Shown: one piece after another, positions 5,274-25,239 of the stretch
Numbering within the stretch: the stretch's first letter is position 1
Layout: each line of letters starts with the position of its first letter
Assembly (NCBI RefSeq): GCF_008326305.1
Contig: NZ_BIXY01000089.1
Location: 1-32,088 of the forward strand
Reading direction: 5' to 3'
Length of the DNA stretch: 32,088 nt
Source: Dictyobacter arantiisoli
GTDB taxonomy: Bacteria; Chloroflexota; Ktedonobacteria; Ktedonobacterales; Ktedonobacteraceae
The notes under the pieces: generated by a model
What the model saw: the letters and a program-made list of their open reading frames with translations, nothing else
Databases searched by the model: none
Told to the model about the DNA's origin: nothing
Translations under genes and position numbers: made by a program

Positions 5274-6161
5274 TTAGGGAAGGATGGCGATGGCCCGCAC
5301 GGGGAAGGTGCCAACACCTTTGAATTTTGGAGGCAAGGCACTGAAGCGGAATCCTTGCTCGGGGAGTTGTTCAAGGCCGCGCAGATGTTCAACAATTAAG
5401 ATTTCTGAGTGGAGTAGCTGTGAATGGACCGGACGTTCCTGTCCACTGGTATCGTCGATGTTCACCGCATCAATTCCCACCAGTTTTACGCCGCATTCGA
5501 CTAAATAACGAGCGGCATCGGCAGTGACATAAGGATGATTCTCAAAATACTGGTCGGTACGCCAGTAGTGATCCCAACCAGTATGAATTAATACTGCGCG
5601 CCCACGTAGCTCTTTGCCCTCAAAAAAGCTACGATCAATCGCCAGCGACTTACGGTAGTCAGCCCGAATGACAATTCCATCCAGATCCGCCATACTGGTC
5701 AGACTCACTTCTGAGAGATCTTTGCCATGCTCATAGCGATGAAAGGGAGTATCTAAATAGGTGCCAGTATTCGCAATCATCTCGATCTTCGCGATATGGA
5801 ACTCAGTACCCGGTGCATAACGTGTGCGCGACTCTTCTCTGCTCAAATAATCGCAAACAATTGGTGCGGGAAAACCTTTCAATGTAATCAGTTCAGTATC
5901 AATCGTATGGCTCACATCGATGAGGCGCTCGTTTTCAGCAGAGGCAGACACAGAAATACGTTTATGGGGTTCAGTAATAATTTCTTTGTTACTGATCTTC
6001 ACCTGCTCGACCATCAACAATTGCATATCTTGGACCAGATAGTCGATGAGTTGCTGATCAGAAATATCGTCGCTATCGATATCCAAACGGAATCCCTGGC
6101 CCTGAATGCCTCCACCATTGGTAAACTTGATCTCAAAATCAAACTGAACGCGTTTATCCAT
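5274..6161 (-). CDS. Cyclase-family (kynurenine formamidase-like) hydrolase with N-terminal extension
   Basis: The ATG at 6161 is chosen because AGAAGGA lies 7-8 bases upstream; a longer frame to 6272 lacks such a site and begins with an unrelated hydrophobic run. The 295-residue product has a cyclase-family core from about residue 79 (RLIDVSHTID). Core enzymes such as KynB are about 210 residues, so the first 75 or so are an extra domain, perhaps a subunit-association module. The family metal motif HxxxHxD reads NTGTYLD here: Asn131 and Tyr135 replace both His ligands while Asp137 and a later His141 remain. GIDAVNIDD and the late His/Glu segment are present. It probably hydrolyses an amide or lactone-like bond; kynurenine specificity is not supported. 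The ADP-ribosylglycohydrolase gene lies upstream on the same strand, 167 bp away. Confidence 0.8.
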   Translation of the reverse strand: MDKRVQFDFEIKFTNGGGIQGQGFRLDIDSDDISDQQLIDYLVQDMQLLMVEQVKISNKEIITEPHKRISVSASAENERLIDVSHTIDTELITLKGFPAPIVCDYLSREESRTRYAPGTEFHIAKIEMIANTGTYLDTPFHRYEHGKDLSEVSLTSMADLDGIVIRADYRKSLAIDRSFFEGKELRGRAVLIHTGWDHYWRTDQYFENHPYVTADAARYLVECGVKLVGIDAVNIDDTSGQERPVHSQLLHSEILIVEHLRGLEQLPEQGFRFSALPPKFKGVGTFPVRAIAILP

Positions 6162-6328
6162 ATCGGTCTTCCTTCTTGCTTCAAACATAACAAGAGAGAT
6201 ACGTGCCTCTCTGCGTGTTACTGTAACAAATGGAGGGAAGAGAAGAAATAGACAAAATAGGAATAGGGCCAAATAGACATATGTATGATCTAACCAGAAA
6301 TCCAGCTTACAACCCGCTATTTATCTGC

Positions 6329-7360
6329 TCAGGCATCCCAGTTTTGCGCCAGACGAGTCAGGCGTTCGCGATATTCGATACGTTCCAGCCAGACAGCAGG
6401 CCAGGCAGCCAGACCCAGATGCGCGCCAGCAAAGGCCCCAGCCAGACAGGCGAGCGAGTCCGAATCGCCTGAAGAGACAGCGGCACGTTGAATAGCGGAC
6501 ACAGCATCATTGGGAAAGAGCAAGAAGCAGAAAAGGCCGGTTGCCAGCGCCTCTTCAGCGATCCAACCAGCTCCGGTCGCCAGACAGGGATCCGCCTGAA
6601 CATCAGGATGTTGTAAGGCCTGCTGCAAACGCACCAATACGCCCAGACATTCATCCCAACCTGCCGCGATAAATTCTTCCGCAGAGGCCGCCTTCGATCG
6701 CTTCCAGAGCGGCCCCAACCAATCCTGATGATAGACTGTACGCTGACTATGTGCATATGCAATCAAGCGTTCAGGTAAGCCCACCAGATCGTCACCACCA
6801 CCTGCTATCAGATCAGCTATCACATAGGCCGTCAAATCAGCCGCCGCCAGCCCAGTTGGATGTCCATGTGTTAACGCCGCCTGAAATTGCGCAATCGCCG
6901 CCCGTTCCTGTTCCGTGACAGCAGGCAGCAGGCCCACAGGAGCCACCCGCATATTCGCGCCACATCCTTTAGAGCCGCTGATCGTCGCCTTATACCATGG
7001 CAGACCACACGCCAGATAATCGCAGGCCTGCATACAAGTCATACCGGGAGCACGATTATTATCCGGACTCTCATTCCAGGCAATAAAAGCATCACGCAGC
7101 GGCTCCTCCAACGTCTTCACTGTATAGGGTTGCTGTGCGACCAATAACGCCTCCCCCACTGCCAGGGCCATCTGCGTATCATCTGTCACACGCGCCAAAG
7201 GAGAGGATAGATCGTGTGGGCCGGCGGGTGGATATTTGGTCAAAATATCGACAACCTGTAAAAATTCGGTATCGGCCCCCAGTGCATCACCATAAGCCAA
7301 TCCAAACAGACATCCTGCGGCGCGCTGTACAGGCAGGACATTCCTGGTAGTCTTTTGCAT
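6329..7360 (-). CDS. ADP-ribosylglycohydrolase (DraG/ARH) family protein
   Basis: A 343-residue protein with the hallmarks of DraG/ARH enzymes, which use a binuclear Mg centre to remove ADP-ribose from proteins or small molecules. GLAYGDALGA (20-29) is the N-terminal signature, TDDTQM (59-64) gives metal-binding Thr-Asp-Asp, GCGANMR (132-138) matches the usual GNGAAMR, and SGDSDSLA (297-304) matches the GGDTDT motif with Ser for Thr. All acidic metal ligands appear present, so it is probably active. No ADP-ribosyltransferase or nitrogenase-regulation gene lies nearby, so the target is unknown. The ATG at 7360 has only a weak upstream purine site. Confidence 0.88.
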   Translation of the reverse strand: MQKTTRNVLPVQRAAGCLFGLAYGDALGADTEFLQVVDILTKYPPAGPHDLSSPLARVTDDTQMALAVGEALLVAQQPYTVKTLEEPLRDAFIAWNESPDNNRAPGMTCMQACDYLACGLPWYKATISGSKGCGANMRVAPVGLLPAVTEQERAAIAQFQAALTHGHPTGLAAADLTAYVIADLIAGGGDDLVGLPERLIAYAHSQRTVYHQDWLGPLWKRSKAASAEEFIAAGWDECLGVLVRLQQALQHPDVQADPCLATGAGWIAEEALATGLFCFLLFPNDAVSAIQRAAVSSGDSDSLACLAGAFAGAHLGLAAWPAVWLERIEYRERLTRLAQNWDA

Positions 7361-7572
7361 TTCTACACATACTCTCTATTATTCATAAGACAAAGTGATA
7401 GAATAGCTTTAATATAACACGGCAATAATCGCATTGTATAGGGCTTAACCTGCTTGCCAGGATCTTCCAATTCTCATGCGCAGGAACCGCATCCCCATTC
7501 CAACCAATGCGGGAAAGCGCGGAAAGCCAACATAGCCGCCGAAGGCTGCACAAAAAAATTGGGAAATTCTTG

Positions 7573-7600
7573 ATGGACAGAATATCATGGACAGAATATC
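7573..7600. promoter_or_regulatory. Perfect tandem 14-bp direct repeat between divergent genes
   Basis: ATGGACAGAATATC occurs twice, head to tail, in the 384-bp region between the divergent ADP-ribosylglycohydrolase and comB genes. Two exact head-to-tail copies in a divergent promoter region suggest a binding site for an activator or repressor. It may equally be a simple duplication. Apart from the hairpin at 7677 nothing else was recognised in this gap. Confidence 0.3.
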
Positions 7601-7676
7601 TATAAACAGGTGATTTTTTGTTCTCAACTCCTGTGATTGTATTCTGGGCAGAATCGTGTATAGTAGAGATAGAGTT

Positions 7677-7705
7677 TGTCCCTGGTAGCACCAGGGACAG
7701 CGTAT
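7677..7705 (+). terminator. Hairpin plus T-run in the comB leader (terminator or attenuator)
   Basis: TGTCCCTGG and CCAGGGACA form a 9-bp stem around TAGCA, followed after a few bases by TTTTTT. It lies about 40 bp upstream of the comB start codon. An extended AT-rich -10-like sequence (GTGTATAGT, about 7657) lies just upstream, so transcripts from there would pass through the hairpin. Attenuation is an inference. Confidence 0.4.
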
Positions 7706-7744
7706 TTTTTGAATCCCTGTGATAAGTATCTTAGGAGAAATCGT

Positions 7745-8518
7745 TTGCAGCTCAGAATTTACTTTAATCCTGCCGAACTTTCGTATGTCGAACCATCCGC
7801 CAACGATATCTATATCGTGATTGATGCCATGCGTGCCACGACAACTATGACCGTTATGTTTGAGCAGGGTGCCAAACAGGTGCTTGCCGCCCATACCCTT
7901 GAACAAGCCCTGGAGTCTGGGCGCAAGATCCCTGGACGCCTGCTCTGCGGCGAACGTCATACCCAGACACCTCCCGGCTTCGATTACGGCAACTCGCCTG
8001 CTCAGTTTGCCCAAATGGATCTTGCAAATCGCGAGCTTGTCCTTACCACCAGCAATGGCACACGCGCGCTCTTTGCCTGTCCCGAGAAGAGTATTCGTCT
8101 GGCTGGTTGTTTCTATAATGGAAGTGCTGTCACTACCCGAGCACTATCCCTGGCCCGGGAGCGTCAGAGCAATATCGCGATTGTTTGCGCCGCCGAATAT
8201 GGCTATTTCGCGCTTGAAGATAGCGCCTGCGCCGGCTACCTGGCCCAGGAACTCTTGCGCCAGTATCCCAAGCTGACTATTCACGATAGCACCTACGGAG
8301 CTATCACCATCGCGGAAAACTATCCGCCAGACATCCTGCGCCAGAAAGCCCAATCATCCCTGGATCTGCTGGCAATCGGACATGATCAGGACCTGAATTA
8401 TTGCCTGACGAAAAGCCAGAGCACGGCTGTTCCAATGGTGACCGGCATCGAAGCCGAAACTGACCTCTTACAGCTCGCCTGTCTGGCTCCAGAACTGGTC
8501 GCGCCAGGTACCCTGTAA
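7745..8518 (+). CDS. comB: 2-phosphosulfolactate phosphatase (ComB family)
   Basis: The start is TTG at 7745, six bases after AGGAGA; the frame stays open further upstream but runs through a hairpin and has no ribosome site. The 257-residue product carries the ComB signature YIVIDAMRATTTM (Asp27, Arg30), the LLCGER segment, TTSNGTRAL and the C-terminal VTGIEAETDLLQ region. ComB is a Mg-dependent acid phosphatase that converts 2-phosphosulfolactate to sulfolactate in the coenzyme M pathway of archaea, and it occurs in many bacteria without coenzyme M, where its role is less clear. No other sulfolactate gene is nearby. The homocysteine/MTHF gene follows 246 bp downstream on the same strand. Confidence 0.88.
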   Translation: MQLRIYFNPAELSYVEPSANDIYIVIDAMRATTTMTVMFEQGAKQVLAAHTLEQALESGRKIPGRLLCGERHTQTPPGFDYGNSPAQFAQMDLANRELVLTTSNGTRALFACPEKSIRLAGCFYNGSAVTTRALSLARERQSNIAIVCAAEYGYFALEDSACAGYLAQELLRQYPKLTIHDSTYGAITIAENYPPDILRQKAQSSLDLLAIGHDQDLNYCLTKSQSTAVPMVTGIEAETDLLQLACLAPELVAPGTL

Positions 8519-8632
8519 TCGCATACAATCTATGAGTAAACCTGATACAGGCTCCTGCACACGGTCGATGAAACTACAAAGATGTATAGATGTGTAGGAA
8601 TTTTTTCTGATACGCACGTCAGCGGCTTTTTA

Positions 8633-8641
8633 TGATATACT
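8633..8641 (+). promoter_or_regulatory. Extended -10 promoter candidate for the homocysteine/MTHF gene
   Basis: TGATATACT is an extended -10 element (TGn-TATACT) about 125 bp upstream of the start codon. No convincing -35 box was found at the normal distance, which extended -10 promoters can tolerate. The leader of about 115 nt shows no recognised riboswitch. Confidence 0.35.
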
Positions 8642-8764
8642 GCTGTAACAATATCTCAAAATGGATTTTCTCCTCGTAGAGATTGAAAGCACCACTATTC
8701 GGGACAGAACAAAGGCTTGGATTATCAGATCATGTTCCATTGCTAAGAAAGCTTGATCATCATT

Positions 8765-10687
8765 ATGCAAACACACTATCCGTTCTTAGAGCGCCTACGG
8801 CATGGTCCACTGTTATGCGACGGTGGAATGGGAACTGAACTCTACGCACGCGGGATTTCTTATGAAAGATGCTTTGAACATCTGAATCTGACGAATCCTG
8901 AACTGATCAAGTCCGTCCATCTGGATTATGTGGCTGCCGGGGCTCAAATTATCGAAACCAATACCTTTGGAGCCAATCGCTATCGCCTCGCTGAACATGG
9001 TCTGGAAGATCAGGTCTATGAGATCAATCGCGCTGGCGCCAAGATTGCTCGTGAGGTGCGTGATCTAAGCGAGCAACCAATCTTTCTGGCAGGCAATATT
9101 GGTCCATTGGGGAGCCCACTCGCGCCAATTGGAAAGATTCAGCCAGACGAGGCCCAAACGGCATTTCTTGAACAAACTGAGGCCCTCCTGCAATCAGGTG
9201 TGGATCTCTTGATCATCGAAACAATGTCTGATCTAACCGAGATGAGCGAAGCATTGACCGCTGTACGCAGCCTCACCGATCTGCCCGTGGTCGCATTGAT
9301 GACCTTTGGCGAAGATGGTACTGTGACCAGCGGCGAAGACGCTCCTACCGTTGCGCGCACCTTGCGCGATCTCGGAGCAAACGTGGTTGGCGTCAACTGC
9401 GCCATGGGGCCCGCCAGCATGTTTGACGTCGCTCAGGACATGTGTGCTTATACGAGTGAGGATTTCTTTATCGGGGTGCAGCCAAACGCGGGCCTGCCGC
9501 GCCGCGTGGGCAATCGCTTTATCTATGTTTCTACCCCCGAATATTTTGCGGACTACACGCGCCGCTTCCTCAAGGCTGGCATTCGCATGATTGGTGGCTG
9601 TTGTGGCACCACACCCAGACATATTTCCGCCATGCATGATGTCCTGACCGAGCTTGCCCCGACGACCACCATCACAACCGACCTGATACCTGCCAGCACT
9701 CCTACCCTGGAAGCACTGCGCGAACGTATCCAGGAGACAGCCACAGCAGGCACACCCGCACAGCCAGCCCCCACCCATGTCGCCCAACTTTTACAGGATG
9801 GGAAGTTCGTGATCAGCATCGAAATGAGCCCGCCGCGCAGCGTAAAATTCACGCGCTTCCTGCAAAATGCCATCTTGATCCGTGACAGCGGCGCTGACGC
9901 TATCAATATTACCGACAACGCCATGGCCCGTGTGCGTATGAATAATGTTGCCGCCGCCCGCTTGATCCAACAAAACGTCGGCATCGAAACCATCGTCCAC
10001 TTCACGCCGCGTGACCGCAATCTGATGGCCGTGCAAAGCGATGTCATCGGAGCGCATGCCACCGAGATTCGCAATATCCTGGCGATTACAGGCGATCCGC
10101 CCAGTCATGGCGACTTCCCCAACTCCACAGGTATCTGGGATGTTGATAGCATCGGCCTGATCTCAATCCTGCACAATCTCAATTTAGGACTCGACGGCAA
10201 TCGTCGCAAGCTTGCTGCCGCCAGCTCTTTCTTTATCGGCTGCGCAGCCAATCCAGTCGCGCCCGATCTGGATGTAGAGATGGAGCGCCTGCACCGCAAA
10301 ATTGAGAATGGAGCACGCTATATCATGACGCAGCCGGTCTTTGCCGCCGAAACATTTCTCAGCTATAAGCAAAACTACGAAAACCGCTACGGCCAGATTC
10401 CTATTCCTATCTTGATAGGACTCCAACCGCTGCATTCCTATCAGCAGGCCGAAAAGTTCCATAATGAAGTACCTGGTATCGTCATCCCAACCGAGATTCG
10501 TAACCGCATGCGCGAAGCGGGTGACACGGGTAGCACGGTCGGACTGGACATTATCAAAGAACTCTTCGACAATCTGGCACCCGCCGTGCAGGGCGCATAC
10601 ATCATGCCGCTCGACCGCTACGAACTCATCACAGAGCTCATCCCCTATATCCGCCAGCGCACACAATCCCCATACGCGCGAACGTAA
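8765..10687 (+). CDS. Bifunctional homocysteine S-methyltransferase / 5,10-methylenetetrahydrofolate reductase
   Basis: A 640-residue fusion. The N-terminal half (about 1-305) is a homocysteine S-methyltransferase: CDGGMGTELYARG near the start, ETNTFGANR, and the zinc-binding cysteines in GVNCAMGP (Cys212) and GGCCGT (Cys279, Cys280). After a Thr/Pro/Ala-rich linker, the C-terminal half (about 340-640) is a methylenetetrahydrofolate reductase TIM barrel (SIEMSPPRS, NITDNAMARVRMN, AITGDPP, MTQPVF). The order matches the YitJ-type fusion of Bacillus. It links the one-carbon pool to methionine synthesis in the cytoplasm. The ATG at 8765 is preferred; a TTG at 8753 in the same frame has AAGAAAG too close. 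A family-B repeat begins immediately after the stop codon. Confidence 0.93.
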   Translation: MQTHYPFLERLRHGPLLCDGGMGTELYARGISYERCFEHLNLTNPELIKSVHLDYVAAGAQIIETNTFGANRYRLAEHGLEDQVYEINRAGAKIAREVRDLSEQPIFLAGNIGPLGSPLAPIGKIQPDEAQTAFLEQTEALLQSGVDLLIIETMSDLTEMSEALTAVRSLTDLPVVALMTFGEDGTVTSGEDAPTVARTLRDLGANVVGVNCAMGPASMFDVAQDMCAYTSEDFFIGVQPNAGLPRRVGNRFIYVSTPEYFADYTRRFLKAGIRMIGGCCGTTPRHISAMHDVLTELAPTTTITTDLIPASTPTLEALRERIQETATAGTPAQPAPTHVAQLLQDGKFVISIEMSPPRSVKFTRFLQNAILIRDSGADAINITDNAMARVRMNNVAAARLIQQNVGIETIVHFTPRDRNLMAVQSDVIGAHATEIRNILAITGDPPSHGDFPNSTGIWDVDSIGLISILHNLNLGLDGNRRKLAAASSFFIGCAANPVAPDLDVEMERLHRKIENGARYIMTQPVFAAETFLSYKQNYENRYGQIPIPILIGLQPLHSYQQAEKFHNEVPGIVIPTEIRNRMREAGDTGSTVGLDIIKELFDNLAPAVQGAYIMPLDRYELITELIPYIRQRTQSPYART

Positions 10688-10890
10688 GCCCTTTCAAGCG
10701 GGATTGCAAAGGGCAATCAGCCCTTTCAAGCGGGATTGCAAAGGGCAACCAGCCCTTTCAAGCGGGATTGCAAAGGGCAACCAGCCCTTTCAAGCGGGAT
10801 TGCAAAGGGCGGCAAGCCCTTTGCCGGGGTTTGGGGTGTCCCCAACTACCCCTTTTTCTTCTTTTCTTCGCCGCCGCACGCGGCAGGCGC
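10688..10890 (+). repeat. Family-B 3' element, copy B1 (three 32-bp units plus three-helix module)
   Basis: The array begins at the base after the TAA stop. Three 32-bp units start at 10688, 10720 and 10752, each with GCCCTTT and AAAGGGC arms around TCAAGCGGGATTGC. The terminal module from 10784 has helix 1 (CAAAGGGC 10803-10810, loop GGCAA, GCCCTTTG 10816-10823), helix 2 (GGGG-TGT-CCCC 10833-10843 nested in GGGGT/ACCCC), the pyrimidine tract TTTTTCTTCTTTTCTTCG, and helix 3 (GCCGC...GCGGC). Helix 2 plus the T-rich tract looks like an intrinsic terminator. The rest of the gap to 11050 holds no gene. Confidence 0.85.
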
Positions 10891-11066
10891 GTAAAATTAT
10901 TCCTCTTTTAACACAATTCACCTGATTACTTAAGGATTCATATGTTATACTTCCCTATGACATGATACAATTCAAAGCATGGATACTCATGCTTTTGGCA
11001 CTTCTTTCCCCTTTTAAAATATGGCATAAAGAATGGAAGTAATGTGTACAGGAAGGAGCATGTACT

Positions 11067-13208
11067 TTGAGAAGATCTACTACGCTTTTCTGGATGTCAG
11101 GACTTGCAGTAGTACTTATACTGGCACTCTTTGTAGGCACGGGCACACTACAAGGCCAGCAAGCCTCCGCACGTGCAGCAGTGAACTCATGCACACTCAA
11201 CTCCCCGGCCGGGAATGTACAACACGTTATCTACCTGCAGTTCGACAATGTGCACTTAACACGTGATAATCCCAATATTCCTTCAGATCTAGAACAAATG
11301 CCCAATCTGCTCAATTTTGTTAAAAACAACGGTACGATGCTTGCGAAGAATCATACGCCGCTTATCGCGCATACTGGCGATGATATTTTGACCAGCCTGA
11401 CGGGTGTGTATGGCGAGCGCCACGGAGTCTCAGTCAGTAACAGTTATCGCTATTACAACACAGATGGTAGTACCAGTTCCACTCCTGCCTTCACCTATTG
11501 GACCGCCCCGGTTTCGGCCACCAATCCGACTTATAATATGCTCAGTGCGCCCAATACCAACGCGCCTGCTCCCTGGGTTCCTTATACACGCGCTGGATGT
11601 AATGTCGGCTCGGTTGCCACTGCAAATACTGTCCTGGAGAATATCGGCACGGATATTCCAACAGTCTTTGGCGCGAATTCTCCTGAGGCAGCTGAAGTCA
11701 AGGTGAATCCAGCGCAGGCCACCAGCGACTTTGTCGGTATCGGCATCCATTGTGCTCAGAATAATGCGTTGTGTGCGACCAGTACCCATGCACGGGCCGA
11801 TATCTTGCCCGACGAACCGGGCGGTTATACTGGCTATCAGGCACTTTTTGGACACAAATATGTTGCCTCACAGATCCATCCCAATGGGCCTCTTACTGAC
11901 CTGAACGGCAATATTATCCAGGATAACAACGGACATGTCGGCTTCCCTGGCTTTGATAGTATGACGCCAGCCGTCTCGCTGTCCTATGTAGCAGACATGC
12001 AAGAACATGGTGTTCCCGTCACCTATGCCTATCTCTCAGACGCTCACGATCCCCATCCTTCCACTGGCTCTGCTTATGGACCGGGGCAGGCGGGCTATGT
12101 GGCCGCACTGAAAGCCTATGATGATGCCTTTGGCAAGTTCTTTACACGCCTGCAAGCAGATGGGATCAATGCCCATAATACCCTCTTCGTGTTTACGGCG
12201 GATGAAGGCGATCATTTCGTAGGCAGTGCGCCTACACCGGCCAATTGTGACGGCGTCACCGTTCCCTGTACGTACAACCAGGTAGGTGAAGTCAATGGCA
12301 ACCTGACCGGCTTGCTGGCGACCCAGAAGAATATCACGACCCCCTTCACCGTCCATGCAGACTCTGCGCCAACCATCTATCTCACCGGACAGCCTGCGCG
12401 CACAGCTCCCGTCACACGTACCTTCGAGCAAGCGCTGGCAGAAATCACCGCGACCAATCCTTACACGGGCAAGACCGAAAAGATTACCCATTCTCTGGCT
12501 GATCCAGTTGAGATGCAACTCTTGCACATGGTCACCGCCGATCCGACGCGTACGCCAACCCTGACCCTCTTCGCCAAGCCTGATTACTATCTCTATGCGG
12601 GCGCGCCCAACTGTATCCAACCCTGCATACAGGCGGAATCAGCCTTTGCCTGGAATCACGGGGATGTCTCGCCCGATATCAATACCACCTGGCTAGGATT
12701 GGTAGGGCCCGGTATCCAGAATCAGCAACTCAATACAACCACCTGGGCAGACCATGCAGACATTCGTCCGACCATGCTGGCCTTGCTGGGATTGAAGGAC
12801 GATTATGTCCATGATGGTCGTGTGCTGTTTGAAGTCATAACCCATCAAGCGCTTCCACCGGCAGTACGGGCCAATCGTGCCTTCTATGAGCAAATCGCCC
12901 AGCTCTACAAACAGATCAACGCCCCGGTTGGCAAGCTGGGACTGAGCAGCCTGGAGATCTCAACCCGCGCCCTGCAAAGTCATAGCGCCAACGATCAGAC
13001 CTATACCACCTTAGAAAATCAGCTACAGCTCATTACCACGCACCGCAATACACTGGCGAAACAGATGATTACGGTCCTGGAAAATGCGGCATTCGGGACA
13101 GCCAATCCCGTCGCAACGATTGCTAATCCCAATCATCAGCAAGCACAATCCCTCTTTAACCAGGGACAGCAACTGCTGAAACAGGCCCAGAAACTCGCCG
13201 CTAACTAA
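11067..13208 (+). CDS. Secreted alkaline-phosphatase-superfamily phosphoesterase
   Basis: The start is TTG at 11067, eight bases after GGAAGGAG. The 713-residue product begins with a signal peptide (basic MRRS, hydrophobic 7-28, ASARAA cleavage region). The mature part has alkaline phosphatase superfamily features: IYLQFDNVH near the start, HTGDDILTSLTGVYGERHG holding the usual nucleophile/metal region, LSDAHDPH, TADEGDHF (the D-x-x-D-H metal ligands) and a late WNHGD. About the last 100 residues are helical and Gln-rich. It probably cleaves phosphate mono- or diesters, or a related ester, outside the membrane. The substrate is unknown. It stands alone between the B1 repeat and a 32-bp palindrome. 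Confidence 0.82.
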   Translation: MRRSTTLFWMSGLAVVLILALFVGTGTLQGQQASARAAVNSCTLNSPAGNVQHVIYLQFDNVHLTRDNPNIPSDLEQMPNLLNFVKNNGTMLAKNHTPLIAHTGDDILTSLTGVYGERHGVSVSNSYRYYNTDGSTSSTPAFTYWTAPVSATNPTYNMLSAPNTNAPAPWVPYTRAGCNVGSVATANTVLENIGTDIPTVFGANSPEAAEVKVNPAQATSDFVGIGIHCAQNNALCATSTHARADILPDEPGGYTGYQALFGHKYVASQIHPNGPLTDLNGNIIQDNNGHVGFPGFDSMTPAVSLSYVADMQEHGVPVTYAYLSDAHDPHPSTGSAYGPGQAGYVAALKAYDDAFGKFFTRLQADGINAHNTLFVFTADEGDHFVGSAPTPANCDGVTVPCTYNQVGEVNGNLTGLLATQKNITTPFTVHADSAPTIYLTGQPARTAPVTRTFEQALAEITATNPYTGKTEKITHSLADPVEMQLLHMVTADPTRTPTLTLFAKPDYYLYAGAPNCIQPCIQAESAFAWNHGDVSPDINTTWLGLVGPGIQNQQLNTTTWADHADIRPTMLALLGLKDDYVHDGRVLFEVITHQALPPAVRANRAFYEQIAQLYKQINAPVGKLGLSSLEISTRALQSHSANDQTYTTLENQLQLITTHRNTLAKQMITVLENAAFGTANPVATIANPNHQQAQSLFNQGQQLLKQAQKLAAN

Positions 13209-18724: not shown

Positions 18725-19549
18725 TTGGATCAAGGTTATTATCAGACGGGTCAGTTTGCCAGAAAAGCAGCTGTTACGGTGCGTACCCTACGCTTTTATG
18801 ACAAGGTTGGACTCCTATCACCACAGCAGCATACCGCTTCTGGACATCGTTTATATAGCGAACAGGATTTCTTTTGCTTGCAGCAGATTCTGGCACTAAA
18901 AATGCTTGGCTTCTCTCTGGCAGAGATTAAAACTTGCTTGCAAACGGAACCACAGCAACTCCAACAGGTGCTTGCAATCCAGAAGCAGATGTTGTACGAA
19001 CGGCGCGCTCAACTGGAGACAATTATCCAGGCGGTCAATCAGGCCGAAAGTCGAATGCAAAACAAACAGCCCATCTGGGAGTCAATTGTAAGTGTGATCC
19101 AGGTGATACAAATGCAGCAAAATAGTGATTGGCACGAGAAATACTTTACCAAAGAGCAGCTCGAAAAGATGCAGCAGATCAGCGAGCAAGCCTATACTTC
19201 TGAACAGCGTCAGCAGATAGCCGACTGGGGTCAGGGCTGGAGTGAAGAAGATCAAAAACAGGCGGATCAGCAATGGCAAGCGGTGAATAGCGAACTACAT
19301 CAGTTGGTCGCCACAGGGGCAGATCCAGCCAGCGCTGAGGCTCAGAAGTGGGTCGCCGCATACCGCACTCTGATTGCCCAATTCACCCATGGCGATATGG
19401 CTATCGAGTCTGGCCTTAAAAAGTATTATAAGACGCTTGAGCAATTGCCTGAACAAGAGCAACCACTCAAGTTACCCTATAATGCCGAGGAGAGCGCGTT
19501 TATTGCCCGCGCAGTCGCTATCCATCAACAAGGGCAGGAAGCACAGTAG
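18725..19549 (+). CDS. MerR-family transcriptional regulator with TipAS ligand-binding domain
   Basis: The TTG start at 18725 is fixed by AAAGGAGGTAG just upstream. Of 274 residues, 1-75 are a MerR winged helix (TVRTLRFYDKVGLL, GHRLYSEQD), about 76-125 a Gln-rich dimerisation coiled coil, and about 140-270 a TipAS domain (YFTKEQLEKMQQISEQAY, GWSEEDQKQADQQW). TipAS-type regulators bind large hydrophobic antibiotics such as thiopeptides and activate promoters by untwisting a long spacer. The promoter at 18672 has exactly that spacer, so it probably controls itself. No efflux pump or other target gene is adjacent. Confidence 0.9.
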   Translation: MDQGYYQTGQFARKAAVTVRTLRFYDKVGLLSPQQHTASGHRLYSEQDFFCLQQILALKMLGFSLAEIKTCLQTEPQQLQQVLAIQKQMLYERRAQLETIIQAVNQAESRMQNKQPIWESIVSVIQVIQMQQNSDWHEKYFTKEQLEKMQQISEQAYTSEQRQQIADWGQGWSEEDQKQADQQWQAVNSELHQLVATGADPASAEAQKWVAAYRTLIAQFTHGDMAIESGLKKYYKTLEQLPEQEQPLKLPYNAEESAFIARAVAIHQQGQEAQ

Positions 19550-19879: not shown

Positions 19880-21745
19880 TTAGCTGACAACCGACACAGT
19901 TCCATCTGAATAGACTCGAACCATAACTGTGGGGAGAGGCCTGGTTGCAGGCCCTTTTAGAACTTTCCCATGCTGCGCGGGATCAAATTGGGCATGGTGA
20001 CGTGGGCAAATCAGGGTGTGACTCTGGGCATCATAGTTGACGAGCACTCCCTGGTGCGTACAGGCTCGATCATAGGCAACCAGCACATTGTCCGGCAGAT
20101 TGATCAAGATACCTTCATTGTTGCTCACAGGATTGGTGAAATTGTGAGCAGTGTTTTTCGCGGGTAGCGCGGTACTGATCAAGGTGCCTGGCGGGGCAAC
20201 CATGTGATCTCTGGTAGCCTGGGGGGCTACTGGAGTAGTATTGGTGGACTGCCCGGGCAGATGTAGTGTTCCATTTTGGACCAGTCGCAACAGGCTAAAG
20301 CCGCCGCCTGCCAGCACACCTACAGTAATAATACTGTTGACCGCCGTGATAATACGCCGCCGCCCTGGATCAGGCTGTCCCGGGCGTTTGCTACGTTGCT
20401 TTGTAGGCATGGCTGCCTGCTTACCAGTCATTGCCTCTCCTGGAGGTGGCGTAGTGATCGCAAGGGGCGTAGCAGGAGGTGGAGTGTTCTGGCGCAAGCC
20501 TGGAAATTTACCGGTCTCAACCGCTATAGCAGATAATTTCTGGCTGGTAGCTAAGTTGGGCATGGCATATGACGCGTCTGCAGTCTGGCGCGGCGCAGAT
20601 ATAGCCGGGCGGTTGATGAGAGCGATACGTTGCAAATTAAATTGTGTGCTTCCAGGAAAGGTCAGCGCGACACTGGGTATACGGCTTGAAGTGATGCCAG
20701 GCATCGCCAGATTTCCTTCACGCGTCTCACCAGGCGGCAATGTGTCCAGCAAATTTAGATGTACTTTCATAGGTAGGGATGTACTGGTCGCAGTAGTGCC
20801 GGGCAGTGTTTCAAGGAACGCGACCGCAGGCTTAGCTGCTTCTTCCATCACATCTAGTACGCGCTCGAAAGCAGTGACCAGCTTGCCAGCCGACTGGAGA
20901 CGCAGATTGGGATCGCGCTCAAGCGCCCGCTGTAATGCGATGTCTAACGCCGCCGGAAGCTCAGGGACCACCGCATGGAGCGAGGGGATACGCTCATCAA
21001 CATGCATCTGGATCAGCTCAAAGGGGTCGGCACTGGTGAAAGGGGCATGTCCACACAACATTTCAAAAACCAGGATACCCAATGCGTACACATCCGTACG
21101 GGTGTCGAAGCCCCCTCCCTGCACGAGCTCAGGCGCGCTATAGGCAGGATTTGTTAACAGGGTGCCCGCGACACTAAATAGACCCCGATAGGGGTGCGCC
21201 ACCTGACCAATGCCATTTATCTCAAGCATATGTGCCAGCCCAAAGCCAGCCACCATCACAGTATAGATTCCCTCAGCACCACCTTCGCGTACCAGGAGCA
21301 CATTTGAGGATTTCAGCGTCCCATGCCATACCTGCTGGTTATGCACATAATCCAGGGCTTCTGCAATCTGACGTAAGAGGGGCAGCATAAGCTCAGGTGT
21401 ACAGCGACCCTGGCTGGCAAGCAGCGTCGCGATGGTATCCCCTTCAATCAGCGGCGATACCAGATAGGGATAGCCATATTGCTCACCAAACGCGTAGGTC
21501 GGCACAACATGGGGATGTTGTAAGCGCTTCAAAGCGGCAGCTTGCTGCATAAAACGCTCCATAAAGCGTTCTCGTGCCAACCCCTGGCACTCATCCGGCA
21601 ACAAAAAAATCGTCACCATCACTGACTGCTCACTCGTCTGCTGTTGAGCGATATATACCGCGCTCAATTTCCCCTGGCCAATTAATTGTGTAAGCCTATA
21701 CGCGCCAATATTTTGCCCAACAAGTTGCGCCACCGATGTGAGCAT
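19880..21745 (-). CDS. Membrane-anchored pseudokinase with C-terminal Rieske [2Fe-2S] domain
   Basis: A 621-residue protein. Residues 15-300 have the bacterial Ser/Thr kinase fold: Gly-rich loop LIGQGKLSAVY, catalytic-loop equivalent WHGTLKSSNVLL (141-150), AGFGLA (166-171), SAPELV (203-208) and DVYALGILVFEML. The catalytic residues are missing: the beta3 Lys position reads VTIF, HRD is HGT, and DFG is GFG. A Pro/Thr-rich linker (about 310-460) leads to a basic stop-transfer (GRRR) and one membrane segment (about 464-488). The C-terminal domain (about 512-621), predicted outside the membrane, has the Rieske ligands CTH (Cys562, His564) and CPRH (Cys580, His583). A redox- or ligand-sensing scaffold rather than a kinase is inferred. 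The ATG follows AAGGGGGGATGTT. The gene is divergent from the signal-peptidase-like gene. Confidence 0.88.
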   Translation of the reverse strand: MLTSVAQLVGQNIGAYRLTQLIGQGKLSAVYIAQQQTSEQSVMVTIFLLPDECQGLARERFMERFMQQAAALKRLQHPHVVPTYAFGEQYGYPYLVSPLIEGDTIATLLASQGRCTPELMLPLLRQIAEALDYVHNQQVWHGTLKSSNVLLVREGGAEGIYTVMVAGFGLAHMLEINGIGQVAHPYRGLFSVAGTLLTNPAYSAPELVQGGGFDTRTDVYALGILVFEMLCGHAPFTSADPFELIQMHVDERIPSLHAVVPELPAALDIALQRALERDPNLRLQSAGKLVTAFERVLDVMEEAAKPAVAFLETLPGTTATSTSLPMKVHLNLLDTLPPGETREGNLAMPGITSSRIPSVALTFPGSTQFNLQRIALINRPAISAPRQTADASYAMPNLATSQKLSAIAVETGKFPGLRQNTPPPATPLAITTPPPGEAMTGKQAAMPTKQRSKRPGQPDPGRRRIITAVNSIITVGVLAGGGFSLLRLVQNGTLHLPGQSTNTTPVAPQATRDHMVAPPGTLISTALPAKNTAHNFTNPVSNNEGILINLPDNVLVAYDRACTHQGVLVNYDAQSHTLICPRHHAQFDPAQHGKVLKGPATRPLPTVMVRVYSDGTVSVVS

Positions 21746-22184
21746 AACATCCCCCCTTGATATGTGCCATTGTAGTCCTCACCTTTGCGGTAAGGCACAA
21801 CGCTTCGTACACACAAGCTCCCAACCACAAAAAAATCCCTTTCTCTATAGTGTAACAACTCAAGAGGATGAGCGTCAAGACAAACCAGTCCTCGACAGGA
21901 CTTGTGGGTAGTTTGGGTAGCAATTGAAGCAGAATGCAGCAAAAATGGCATTCTGATAGAATAGGGAAAATACGTTGGTAGTTTTGGGCTATCCTTTGTA
22001 GTATTCTCGGATTTTCCAGACACTCTGCGCTATACTACCCCTACGAGTCGCACGAAAGCAATACTCTATACATTCAAAAGCTGCACTATCAACAAAGATT
22101 GAAAAAAATAACTTCTCATGCGCTCTATTTTCGCCCGGCGCACTCTCTATAGATAAAAAACACGTCGCATACGGGAGATTCATC
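21746..22184. other. Divergent intergenic region between pseudokinase and signal peptidase-like genes
   Basis: A 439-bp region with no recognisable gene. It contains an 8-bp inverted repeat (CAGAATGC 21930-21937, GCATTCTG 21948-21955) and a TATACT box near 22030 that could serve the plus-strand gene. Promoters for both genes are expected here. No riboswitch or RNA was recognised. Confidence 0.35.
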
Positions 22185-22977: not shown

Positions 22978-24042
22978 ATGCAATCAACGTCTCAACCAAC
23001 GCCCAATCCCATGGGCGTCGCTCGCTTTATCTCTGCCTGCCAACGCCAACCTGTCACAACGACACCGCTCTGGTTTATGCGTCAGGCGGGCCATTGTCTG
23101 GCCGATTACCGCAAACTACGCGAAAGCTATGATATTTTAACGATCGCACGCACACCAGAACTATGCTCACAGGTATCGCTCCTGCCAGTTGAGCGCTACG
23201 GCGTCGATGCGGCCGTCATGTACAACGATATTATCCTTCCCTTCGCAGGCATGGGACTGCACACAGAACTTGATCCGGCACGCGGCCCTATCGTTGAGAA
23301 TCCTGTCCAATCCCTTCAGGACGTGGAGAATCTTATTATCAGCGATGCAGAAGAGGCCACGCCCTTTGTAATGGAGGCGATCAGGATTGTCAAACGGGAG
23401 CTACATGGCAAGCAAGCCGTGATTGCGATTGCTGGTGGTCCCCTTACGCTGGCTCTATATATACTTGAAGGCATTCCCTCACGCGATTATGCACGCGCCA
23501 AAACAGTGTTGTATCAACAACCTGAAGTATGGCATGCCTTATTAGAAAAAATTACTCGGGTATTGATCAGCTACGTGCAGGCAGAAATCAGGGCAGGAGC
23601 TGATGTTGTACAGATGTTTGATAGCAATGTCGGCATACTGGGACCGACAATCTACCGGACGTTTGTCCAACCTTACTCACAACGAGTCCTTGCCGCCATC
23701 AAAGATGCGGGAGGAGTGAGCATTCACTTTGGTACCGCCAACGCCAGCCTCTTGAGCGCTATGGCTGAAGCAGGCGGAGATGTAATTGGAGTTGACTGGC
23801 GTGTCGATATTGACACAGCCTGGCAACAAATTGGCGACCAGCATGCGATCATGGGCAACCTCGATCCCATGCTTATGCTCGCCCCCTGGGACGCTATTGA
23901 AGCGCAAGCGCGAGCCATCCTGGAAAGCGTCGGGCCGCGCCCTGGACATATCTTCAATCTCGGCCACGCAGTCCATCCAGCGACGCAACCGGACACACTG
24001 CGCAGGCTGGCCGACTTTGTTCACACATATTCCTGGAACTAG
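22978..24042 (+). CDS. Uroporphyrinogen decarboxylase-like protein (divergent HemE paralogue)
   Basis: A 354-residue HemE-family TIM barrel. The signature reads PLWFMRQAGHCLADYR: Arg35 is kept but the second invariant Arg of RQAGR is His39, and the following Tyr is Cys40. Other active-site positions remain: Asp84 in YNDIILP, the Tyr in LTLALYILEG, FDS in QMFDSNVG, and the late His in FNLGHAV. HemE decarboxylates uroporphyrinogen III to coproporphyrinogen III; the lost Arg normally helps bind substrate carboxylates, so activity or substrate may have shifted. ATG 22978 has AAGGAAG upstream. The canonical hemE follows after 105 bp, so this is a tandem duplication that has diverged. Confidence 0.87.
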   Translation: MQSTSQPTPNPMGVARFISACQRQPVTTTPLWFMRQAGHCLADYRKLRESYDILTIARTPELCSQVSLLPVERYGVDAAVMYNDIILPFAGMGLHTELDPARGPIVENPVQSLQDVENLIISDAEEATPFVMEAIRIVKRELHGKQAVIAIAGGPLTLALYILEGIPSRDYARAKTVLYQQPEVWHALLEKITRVLISYVQAEIRAGADVVQMFDSNVGILGPTIYRTFVQPYSQRVLAAIKDAGGVSIHFGTANASLLSAMAEAGGDVIGVDWRVDIDTAWQQIGDQHAIMGNLDPMLMLAPWDAIEAQARAILESVGPRPGHIFNLGHAVHPATQPDTLRRLADFVHTYSWN

Positions 24043-24147
24043 CCTGCACTAAGGAAACGAGTACTCATTCGACGCATCTATGCGTGCTTCAAGCAATATA
24101 CATGCTATAGATACTTTTCGGACCAGGAAGATAGGAAATAGAAAATA

Positions 24148-25239
24148 ATGGATAGAACATCAACTCTGACACAGGCCACGCCAGAGGCGAAGCTACAGAG
24201 CCGTTTTTTGCGAGCCTGCTATGGTTTACCAGTGGACGCAACGCCCATCTGGCTGATGCGCCAGGCAGGTCGCTATATGGAAGAATATCGAGCCCTACGG
24301 GCACAGCATCCTATTCTAGAATTGATCAAGACGCCAGAATTGGCTGCTGAAGTAACGCTACAACCGATGCGGGCCTTTGACCTGGATGCTGCGATTATTT
24401 TTGCGGATATCTTGCCTCCTTTGCAAGGGATGGGGCTGAACCTCGAGTTTATGAAGGGTGAAGGACCGGTCATCCATAATCCACTGCGCACACGTGCCGA
24501 CGTTGAAGCTTTGCGTGTACCTGAGCCAGAAGAGAGCCTCTGGTTCACATTGGAGGCTATCAAACTGGTACGCCGTGAACTTGCCAGCCGCAATATTCCC
24601 TTGATCGGCTTCAGCGGCGCACCCTTTACCCTGGCTTCCTATGCTATTGAGGGGGGGAGCAGCAAAAACTATCTCCACGCCAAAGGGATGATGATGAGCG
24701 ACCCAGCAACCTGGCATCTGCTGATGGAGAAACTAAGCGCTGTAATCGGTCAGTATCTGCTGGCACAGGCTCGCGCAGGTGCGCAGGCGCTCCAATTCTT
24801 CGATAGCTGGGTCGGCGCGTTAAGCCCGGCCGACTATCGAGAATACATCCTGCCGCACAGCAAGCATGCCCTTGACATCGCCAGACAGGGAGGCGTGCCA
24901 ATCATTCACTTTGGCACCAACACTGGAGGCATGCTTGACCTCTTACAGGAAGCGGGTGGTGATGTAATCGGCATTGATTGGCATCAAGATCTTGCCAGTA
25001 CCTGGCAAACGCTCAAGCCCGGCACAGCTGTCCAGGGCAATCTCGATCCAGTTACCTTATTCGCCCCCTGGCCCGAAATTGAACGACGCACCAGAGAGAT
25101 TCTAGATAGTGTGGCGGGCAAACCCGGCCACATCTTCAACCTGGGACATGGCATCCTTCAGGGCACACCAGTTGATAATGTCCGACGCCTCGTCGATTTC
25201 GTCCATACCTACACCTCACGCACCCCACAACCAGCCTAG
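24148..25239 (+). CDS. hemE: Uroporphyrinogen decarboxylase
   Basis: A 363-residue HemE with the full signature PIWLMRQAGRYMEEYR (Arg38, Arg42), the catalytic Asp in IIFADILPP, APFTLASYAIEGG, FDSWVGALSP and FNLGHGI. It is a cytoplasmic enzyme removing four acetate carboxyls from uroporphyrinogen III in heme synthesis. The start codon ATG 24148 follows a weak purine-rich stretch. It lies 105 bp after the divergent paralogue and is probably co-transcribed. No other heme genes are within the window. A family-C repeat begins 27 bp after its stop codon. Confidence 0.93.
   Translation: MDRTSTLTQATPEAKLQSRFLRACYGLPVDATPIWLMRQAGRYMEEYRALRAQHPILELIKTPELAAEVTLQPMRAFDLDAAIIFADILPPLQGMGLNLEFMKGEGPVIHNPLRTRADVEALRVPEPEESLWFTLEAIKLVRRELASRNIPLIGFSGAPFTLASYAIEGGSSKNYLHAKGMMMSDPATWHLLMEKLSAVIGQYLLAQARAGAQALQFFDSWVGALSPADYREYILPHSKHALDIARQGGVPIIHFGTNTGGMLDLLQEAGGDVIGIDWHQDLASTWQTLKPGTAVQGNLDPVTLFAPWPEIERRTREILDSVAGKPGHIFNLGHGILQGTPVDNVRRLVDFVHTYTSRTPQPA

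Follow-up and report, generated by a model that had tools for sequence, protein, structure and literature searches.

An apparently undescribed family of predicted membrane-anchored pseudokinase-Rieske proteins conserved in Ktedonobacteraceae

The stretch of DNA analysed here (the window, 32,088 nucleotides of Dictyobacter arantiisoli contig NZ_BIXY01000089.1) encodes a 621-residue protein in which a kinase-like domain lacking its catalytic residues is joined, through a linker and a membrane segment, to a Rieske iron-sulfur domain, and which belongs to a real and conserved family that is apparently undescribed. The architecture, the loss of catalytic residues, the action of selection and a twin-arginine motif are established at the level of sequence. 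Based on the twin-arginine motif in members with intact Rieske ligands and on an operon found in a second subfamily (group B), the most likely role of the Rieske domain is to carry electrons or to sense redox state on the outer side, after export in folded form by the Tat system, while tethered to a pseudokinase adaptor. We place an even chance on the window protein being a redox protein that is tethered to the membrane and has a pseudokinase as its adaptor. An inward redox signal, passed by the Rieske domain to the pseudokinase, is possible; the context, namely the group B operon and the fusions of related Rieske modules to DoxX/DoxD and ferric-reductase-type heme domains, speaks for electron transfer no less than for sensing.

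Results

The gene (19880..21745; this and all coordinates of its parts refer to the minus strand) opens with an ATG at 21745 and closes with a stop at 19880, exactly as an earlier sequence-only reading had placed it, and its order of pseudokinase, linker, Tat-type membrane segment and Rieske domain is supported by the reading frame and by orthologues. A ribosome-binding site, AAGGGGGG (21751..21758), can be read directly 5 nt 5' of the ATG. Pfam detects a kinase and a Rieske domain only, and there is one membrane segment, at about residues 465-486. The sequence-only reading had claimed a fusion of these two domains, with the kinase inside and the Rieske domain outside, and had proposed a domain search as a check; this search returned Pkinase (3.9e-33) and Rieske (4.5e-9), both over the curated cut-offs, and the fused architecture recurs across the family, as does support for the predicted topology. 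AlphaFold2, run on the window protein as a single sequence without alignment, gave a pLDDT of 34.8, too low to draw on.

The Hanks-type kinase domain occupies residues 16-284 (20894..21700), where PF00069 scores 115.4 bits against a curated cut-off of 31.7, and its best structural-sequence matches are PknE and PknB chains. Judged by its residues, the domain is dead. Alignment to the PknE and PknB PDB entries places Thr45 (ACG, 21611..21613) at the position of the beta3 ATP-binding Lys, Thr143 (ACG, 21317..21319) at that of the HRD catalytic Asp and Gly167 (GGC, 21245..21247) at that of the DFG metal-binding Asp, which bears out the pseudokinase call made previously; the alphaC Glu, unmentioned at that time, is also exchanged, for Gln68. 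Retained in the window fold are the glycine-loop residues G23 and G25, HRD+5 Asn148, APE Glu206, Asp218 and Arg282. The losses are family-wide, the beta3 Lys being found in 0 of 45, the HRD Asp in 0 of 46 and the DFG Asp in 0 of 46 readable members in a tally of 48 family rows, two of them split or edge copies. The Lys position is occupied by T (35), R (7), A (2) or V (1), the HRD Asp position by A, T, N, S, M, I or G and never by D, and the DFG Asp position by G (36), E (7), R (2) or A (1), again never by D. Residues of the fold are invariant where present, with the APE Glu in 47 of 47, the helix-F Asp in 47 of 47 and the helix-I Arg in 48 of 48; the alphaC Glu is frequently missing, and the glycine loop and HRD+5 Asn are present in most members of group A, the subfamily of the window protein.

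Kinases encoded near family members retain the Lys in 18 of 18 cases and both Asp residues in 17 of 17, as do 17 reference kinases from the window genome, the latter a biased control since they were chosen by an HRD-type pattern. With the kinase fold, loss of the catalytic triad and purifying selection in the family, the window kinase half is a probable bacterial pseudokinase; it has the fold of an active Hanks-type Ser/Thr kinase but neither its beta3 Lys nor its HRD and DFG Asp. PADLOC matches (PD-T4-6 and others) covered the kinase part only, at about residues 10-330, and were not taken as a sign of a part in defence. The window genome encodes a further kinase homologue (L003, G000:C3:18247-19215) that is without the HRD and DFG Asp (HQFLNPAN, RVGLAQ); its protein has no Rieske domain and ends in a long acidic C-terminal region.

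The kinase domain is followed by a Pro/Thr-rich cytoplasmic linker of ~160 residues (300-460; 20366..20848), which same-genus ortholog identities show to be poorly conserved: identity is 73% in the kinase domain, 60-62% in the Rieske domain and 46-47% in the kinase-to-Rieske segment, the linker changing faster than either domain. At the end of the linker lies a twin-arginine (Tat-type) motif that the sequence-only reading overlooked, Arg462-Arg464 (20354..20362), within the stretch GRRRIITA (residues 461-468) and N-terminal to a Gly-rich, weakly hydrophobic membrane segment (residues 465-486; 20288..20353; best 19-residue Kyte-Doolittle mean 1.76). The motif is conserved in the family, RR standing directly N-terminal to the membrane segment in every intact-ligand member with a complete flank, and the segment is Gly/Ala-rich across intact members, most others having values of 1.5-2.6. 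In one clade of four members that lost both Rieske His (L108, L109, L120 and L134; CTTD..CPPD/CGAD), RK is found instead of RR and the segment is strongly hydrophobic (2.66-2.86). Hydropathy by itself cannot split the RR from the RK clade, since L141, with intact ligands, has a segment value of 2.67. The joint loss of RR and Rieske His in one clade represents no more than a single evolutionary event, but a loss of this kind is expected if RR serves export of the cluster-loaded domain. An internal RR with a weak segment is used by actinobacterial Rieske proteins (Tooke et al., PMC5449189), and the window genome encodes TatC (3.1e-59). On its sequence features the window protein is a putative Tat substrate, the twin-arginine motif offering a way for a folded iron-sulfur domain to reach the outside.

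The Rieske [2Fe-2S] domain, predicted to lie outside, spans residues 530-619 (19889..20158; family profile 6.5e-46), PF00355 matching residues 543-606 with 36.6 bits against a cut-off of 20.3. Direct reading and comparison with relatives confirm the intact ligands reported earlier, Cys562-Thr-His564 (CTH, 20054..20062) and Cys580-Pro-Arg-His583 (CPRH, 19997..20008), the latter without disulfide cysteines; they are conserved outside the one clade, and the CxH...CxxH pattern predicts a cluster. The closest solved structures are arsenite oxidase AioB and actinobacterial QcrA. The domain does not conform to the bc1/b6f type, having the motif CTHQGV..CPRH and no cytochrome b among the annotated neighbours of its gene. 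In bc-type Rieske proteins Ser and Tyr residues raise the redox potential; the window domain has Ala and Phe at these positions and, since it also has no disulfide cysteines, is expected by analogy to have a lower potential. The four His-less proteins apparently retain the Rieske fold without a cluster, and their Rieske domain is under purifying selection despite the His loss.

The neighbours of the window gene are lepB, two hemE-like genes and a MerR-TipAS regulator, and among these annotated neighbours no redox, kinase or partner oxidoreductase gene adjoins it. The hemE-like (uroporphyrinogen decarboxylase) genes form an adjacent pair (window 22978-25239, plus strand) beside the signal peptidase I gene, an order repeated in three same-genus genomes, and the MerR regulator, with a TipAS drug-recognition domain, lies downstream of the fusion gene (window 18725-19549, plus strand).

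The sequence-only reading also overlooked the group B operon. There the fusion gene is followed, in 8 of 8 cases, by a same-strand FAD/NAD(P)H oxidoreductase-FHA gene and a 4Fe-4S/cNMP gene, the third gene, wherever the fetched stretch is long enough to include it, encoding a di-heme membrane protein. This protein has two H-x13-H motifs, whose four heme-type His are unchanged in all 10 complete copies, and is likely a di-heme conduit. In a group A subtype (L131, L159) the divergent neighbour is a fused version of the reductase. The window genome carries the three-gene chain on another contig (C2, locus L157), with no fusion gene alongside, and a second fusion at C12, where the conserved neighbourhood includes an active HCD-type kinase. 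The link between fusion and chain is not obligatory, since in genus g13, which has the fusion, the ferredoxin-cNMP protein has no close relative, and genome G007 has the chain with the fusion undetected. At L157 (G000:C2:109000-125000, genes 5683-11200) redox, cyclic-nucleotide and phospho-threonine domains are combined in one operon, and the FAD-FHA/4Fe-4S-cNMP/di-heme arrangement is seemingly confined to part of the window's family.

Three same-genus orthologues (62-64% identity, one N-terminally broken) and full-length relatives in other genera (33-40% identity) were found in 61 related genomes. An order-wide survey, in which loci were fetched with a Rieske-part profile (A1) and each ORF was tested for both domains, yielded 46 ORFs carrying a kinase-like and a Rieske domain. 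Among the 29 genomes sampled from the window's family, Ktedonobacteraceae, 25 have at least one copy of the fusion; the same Rieske-profile survey found it in 0 of 18 genomes from other families of the order, and 14 long-frame Rieske matches elsewhere in Chloroflexota, outside the order, carried a kinase domain in 0 cases. Kinases were present in plasmid records, none covering 80% of the query, and a related-locus search of genome contigs returned one unrelated kinase fragment only. Chance or sequencing error as the source of the fusion is ruled out by the same-genus orthologues and by dozens of distant ones with identical architecture and losses, and an assembly chimera by recurrence of the architecture in independent genomes.

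At the three catalytic sites group A has mostly T / HGTLK-like / GFG, and the eight group B proteins have R / HRN / EFG in complete copies together with a disulfide-type Rieske motif (CTHxxC..CPCH). In the kinase-domain tree all family members lie beyond one branch (SH-aLRT 95; group A alone 98), a short branch obtained by a quick method, so that a single origin of groups A and B is likely but not certain. For close pairs omega was 0.02-0.33 in the kinase domain and, where computable, did not exceed 0.28 in the Rieske domain, dS being saturated for the window's own ortholog pairs. In G001 and G004 two A2-type copies (L123, L126) are split and the N-terminus of L100 is broken, by frameshift or sequencing error.

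Discussion

We infer that the Rieske domain would fold and acquire its [2Fe-2S] cluster in the cytoplasm, would be exported folded by Tat while remaining anchored, and on the outside would either carry electrons or respond to them. Inside, the pseudokinase would dock partners, be they active Ser/Thr kinases or FHA proteins that bind pThr, and would link these to the state of the cluster or the flow of electrons. In group B electrons would probably pass from NAD(P)H through the FAD-FHA reductase, the 4Fe-4S/cNMP polyferredoxin and the di-heme membrane protein to the Rieske domain. More tentatively, the family may be a class of transmembrane pseudokinases by which a chain exporting electrons outward (NAD(P)H, FAD-FHA, polyferredoxin-cNMP, di-heme, Rieske) is tied to Ser/Thr phospho-signalling, the pseudokinase sensing or gating the flow through its own Tat-exported Rieske cluster.

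The sequence-only reading had proposed a redox sensor joined through the membrane to a pseudokinase. In a pure sensor of this kind, a PknB-like receptor whose kinase is dead and whose ectodomain is Rieske, redox change in the outer domain would alter conformation or dimerisation of the pseudokinase, allosterically switching an active Ser/Thr kinase. The receptor-like topology is consistent with this proposal, as are the greater conservation of the kinase than of the Rieske domain in the window subgroup, the active HCD-type kinase in the neighbourhood of the C12 paralogue and a Rieske domain without disulfide cysteines in which Ala and Phe replace the potential-raising Ser and Tyr. However, a partner kinase is absent beside the window gene, the group B operon resembles an electron chain and in one clade selection maintains the protein although its Rieske His are gone; we consider a pure sensor possible but doubtful. 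It is improbable that the Rieske domain is instead an independent extracytoplasmic oxidoreductase subunit, similar to AioB or QcrA, that serves a periplasmic enzyme or a quinol enzyme while the pseudokinase does no more than anchor it. AioB and QcrA are indeed its nearest solved relatives, and the Tat-Rieske module of relatives is joined to DoxX/DoxD and ferric-reductase domains, but the pseudokinase domain is strongly constrained (omega as low as 0.02 and no higher than 0.33) and a partner oxidoreductase is absent beside the window gene.

The pseudokinase could instead have a non-canonical activity, Mg-independent or AMP-transferring as in SelO and CASK, the Rieske domain serving merely as an anchor, in keeping with the glycine loop and HRD+5 Asn of most group A members. 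SelO and CASK keep some of the catalytic residues, whereas here none of the three (beta3 Lys, HRD Asp, DFG Asp) is left, the alphaC Glu often being lost as well, and the Rieske ligands are conserved outside one clade, making this activity quite improbable. Decay of a functionless duplicate is very improbable indeed: spare copies are plausible given the about 70 kinase matches in the window species, and the A2-type copies L123 and L126 and the N-terminus of L100 are broken, but the window ORF is intact, its orthologues persist in the genus, fusions of this kind occur in 25 of the 29 genomes from the family, omega is well under 1 in both domains and the losses are fixed clade-wide.

To our knowledge, most bacterial pseudokinases are orphans without an assigned function. 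The present family is predicted to carry a cofactor that is visible spectroscopically and, in one subfamily, has a fixed operon as well, and its role is therefore directly testable. In a soil-type, Ktedonobacteria-like host it may link a membrane electron chain to protein-kinase-style signalling. If the cluster controls the pseudokinase, the protein would constitute a transmembrane link from extracytoplasmic redox state to Ser/Thr signalling that is unmatched in the literature searched. The open-access papers searched contained nothing relevant joining a Rieske domain with a pseudokinase or kinase domain, and the word Rieske is absent from a 2025 review of bacterial pseudokinase families (PMC12599244).

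The nearest other Rieske modules are those of DoxX/DoxD-Tat-Rieske proteins across the phylum (Pfam DoxD, TAT_signal, Rieske), which share the C-terminal Tat segment and Rieske module, the DoxX type being closest in sequence; such fusions (L085-L097) are widespread within the order and beyond. The DoxX type keeps disulfide-type cysteines (CTHxGC..CPCH), unlike the window protein, and in a short, poorly resolved Rieske tree group B lies beside it. One Chloroflexota genome (G299) encodes a ferric-reductase-type membrane domain followed by a Tat-like segment and a Rieske domain (L163:1778-3154(-), L171:1814-3190(-)). In both types the N-terminal half is a membrane redox domain, not a pseudokinase. 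QcrA and the Sec/Tat dual-targeted Rieske proteins have, as here, an internal twin-arginine and weak segment after preceding sequence (PMC5449189); in QcrA, part of a bc complex, Sec-inserted TM helices come before the Tat segment, whereas in the window protein a soluble pseudokinase comes first. Internal Tat targeting would, if our interpretation is correct, extend to a soluble, kinase-fold N-terminal half.

PknB/PASTA kinases resemble the window protein in having a cytoplasmic kinase fold, a linker, a single membrane segment and an outer C-terminal domain; the window protein differs in having no catalytic residues, a Rieske domain in place of PASTA and a twin-arginine before the membrane segment. 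All three motifs are likewise degraded in the pseudokinase families ActPs1-3, GLW, CP1, DYD and DLHK (PMC12599244) and in MviN and EssB/YukC, several with a C-terminal membrane segment; the partner domains described for the former are different ones. What would be new here is a redox-active outer domain on a transmembrane pseudokinase. PknG, an active kinase with a rubredoxin-like domain and TPRs (PMC8546545), likewise combines a redox metal domain and a bacterial Ser/Thr kinase fold on one chain. The window protein has neither rubredoxin, TPRs nor an active kinase, its kinase being dead and its Rieske domain predicted to lie on the opposite face of the membrane; PknG, with its rubredoxin domain, is nevertheless the closest precedent in concept.
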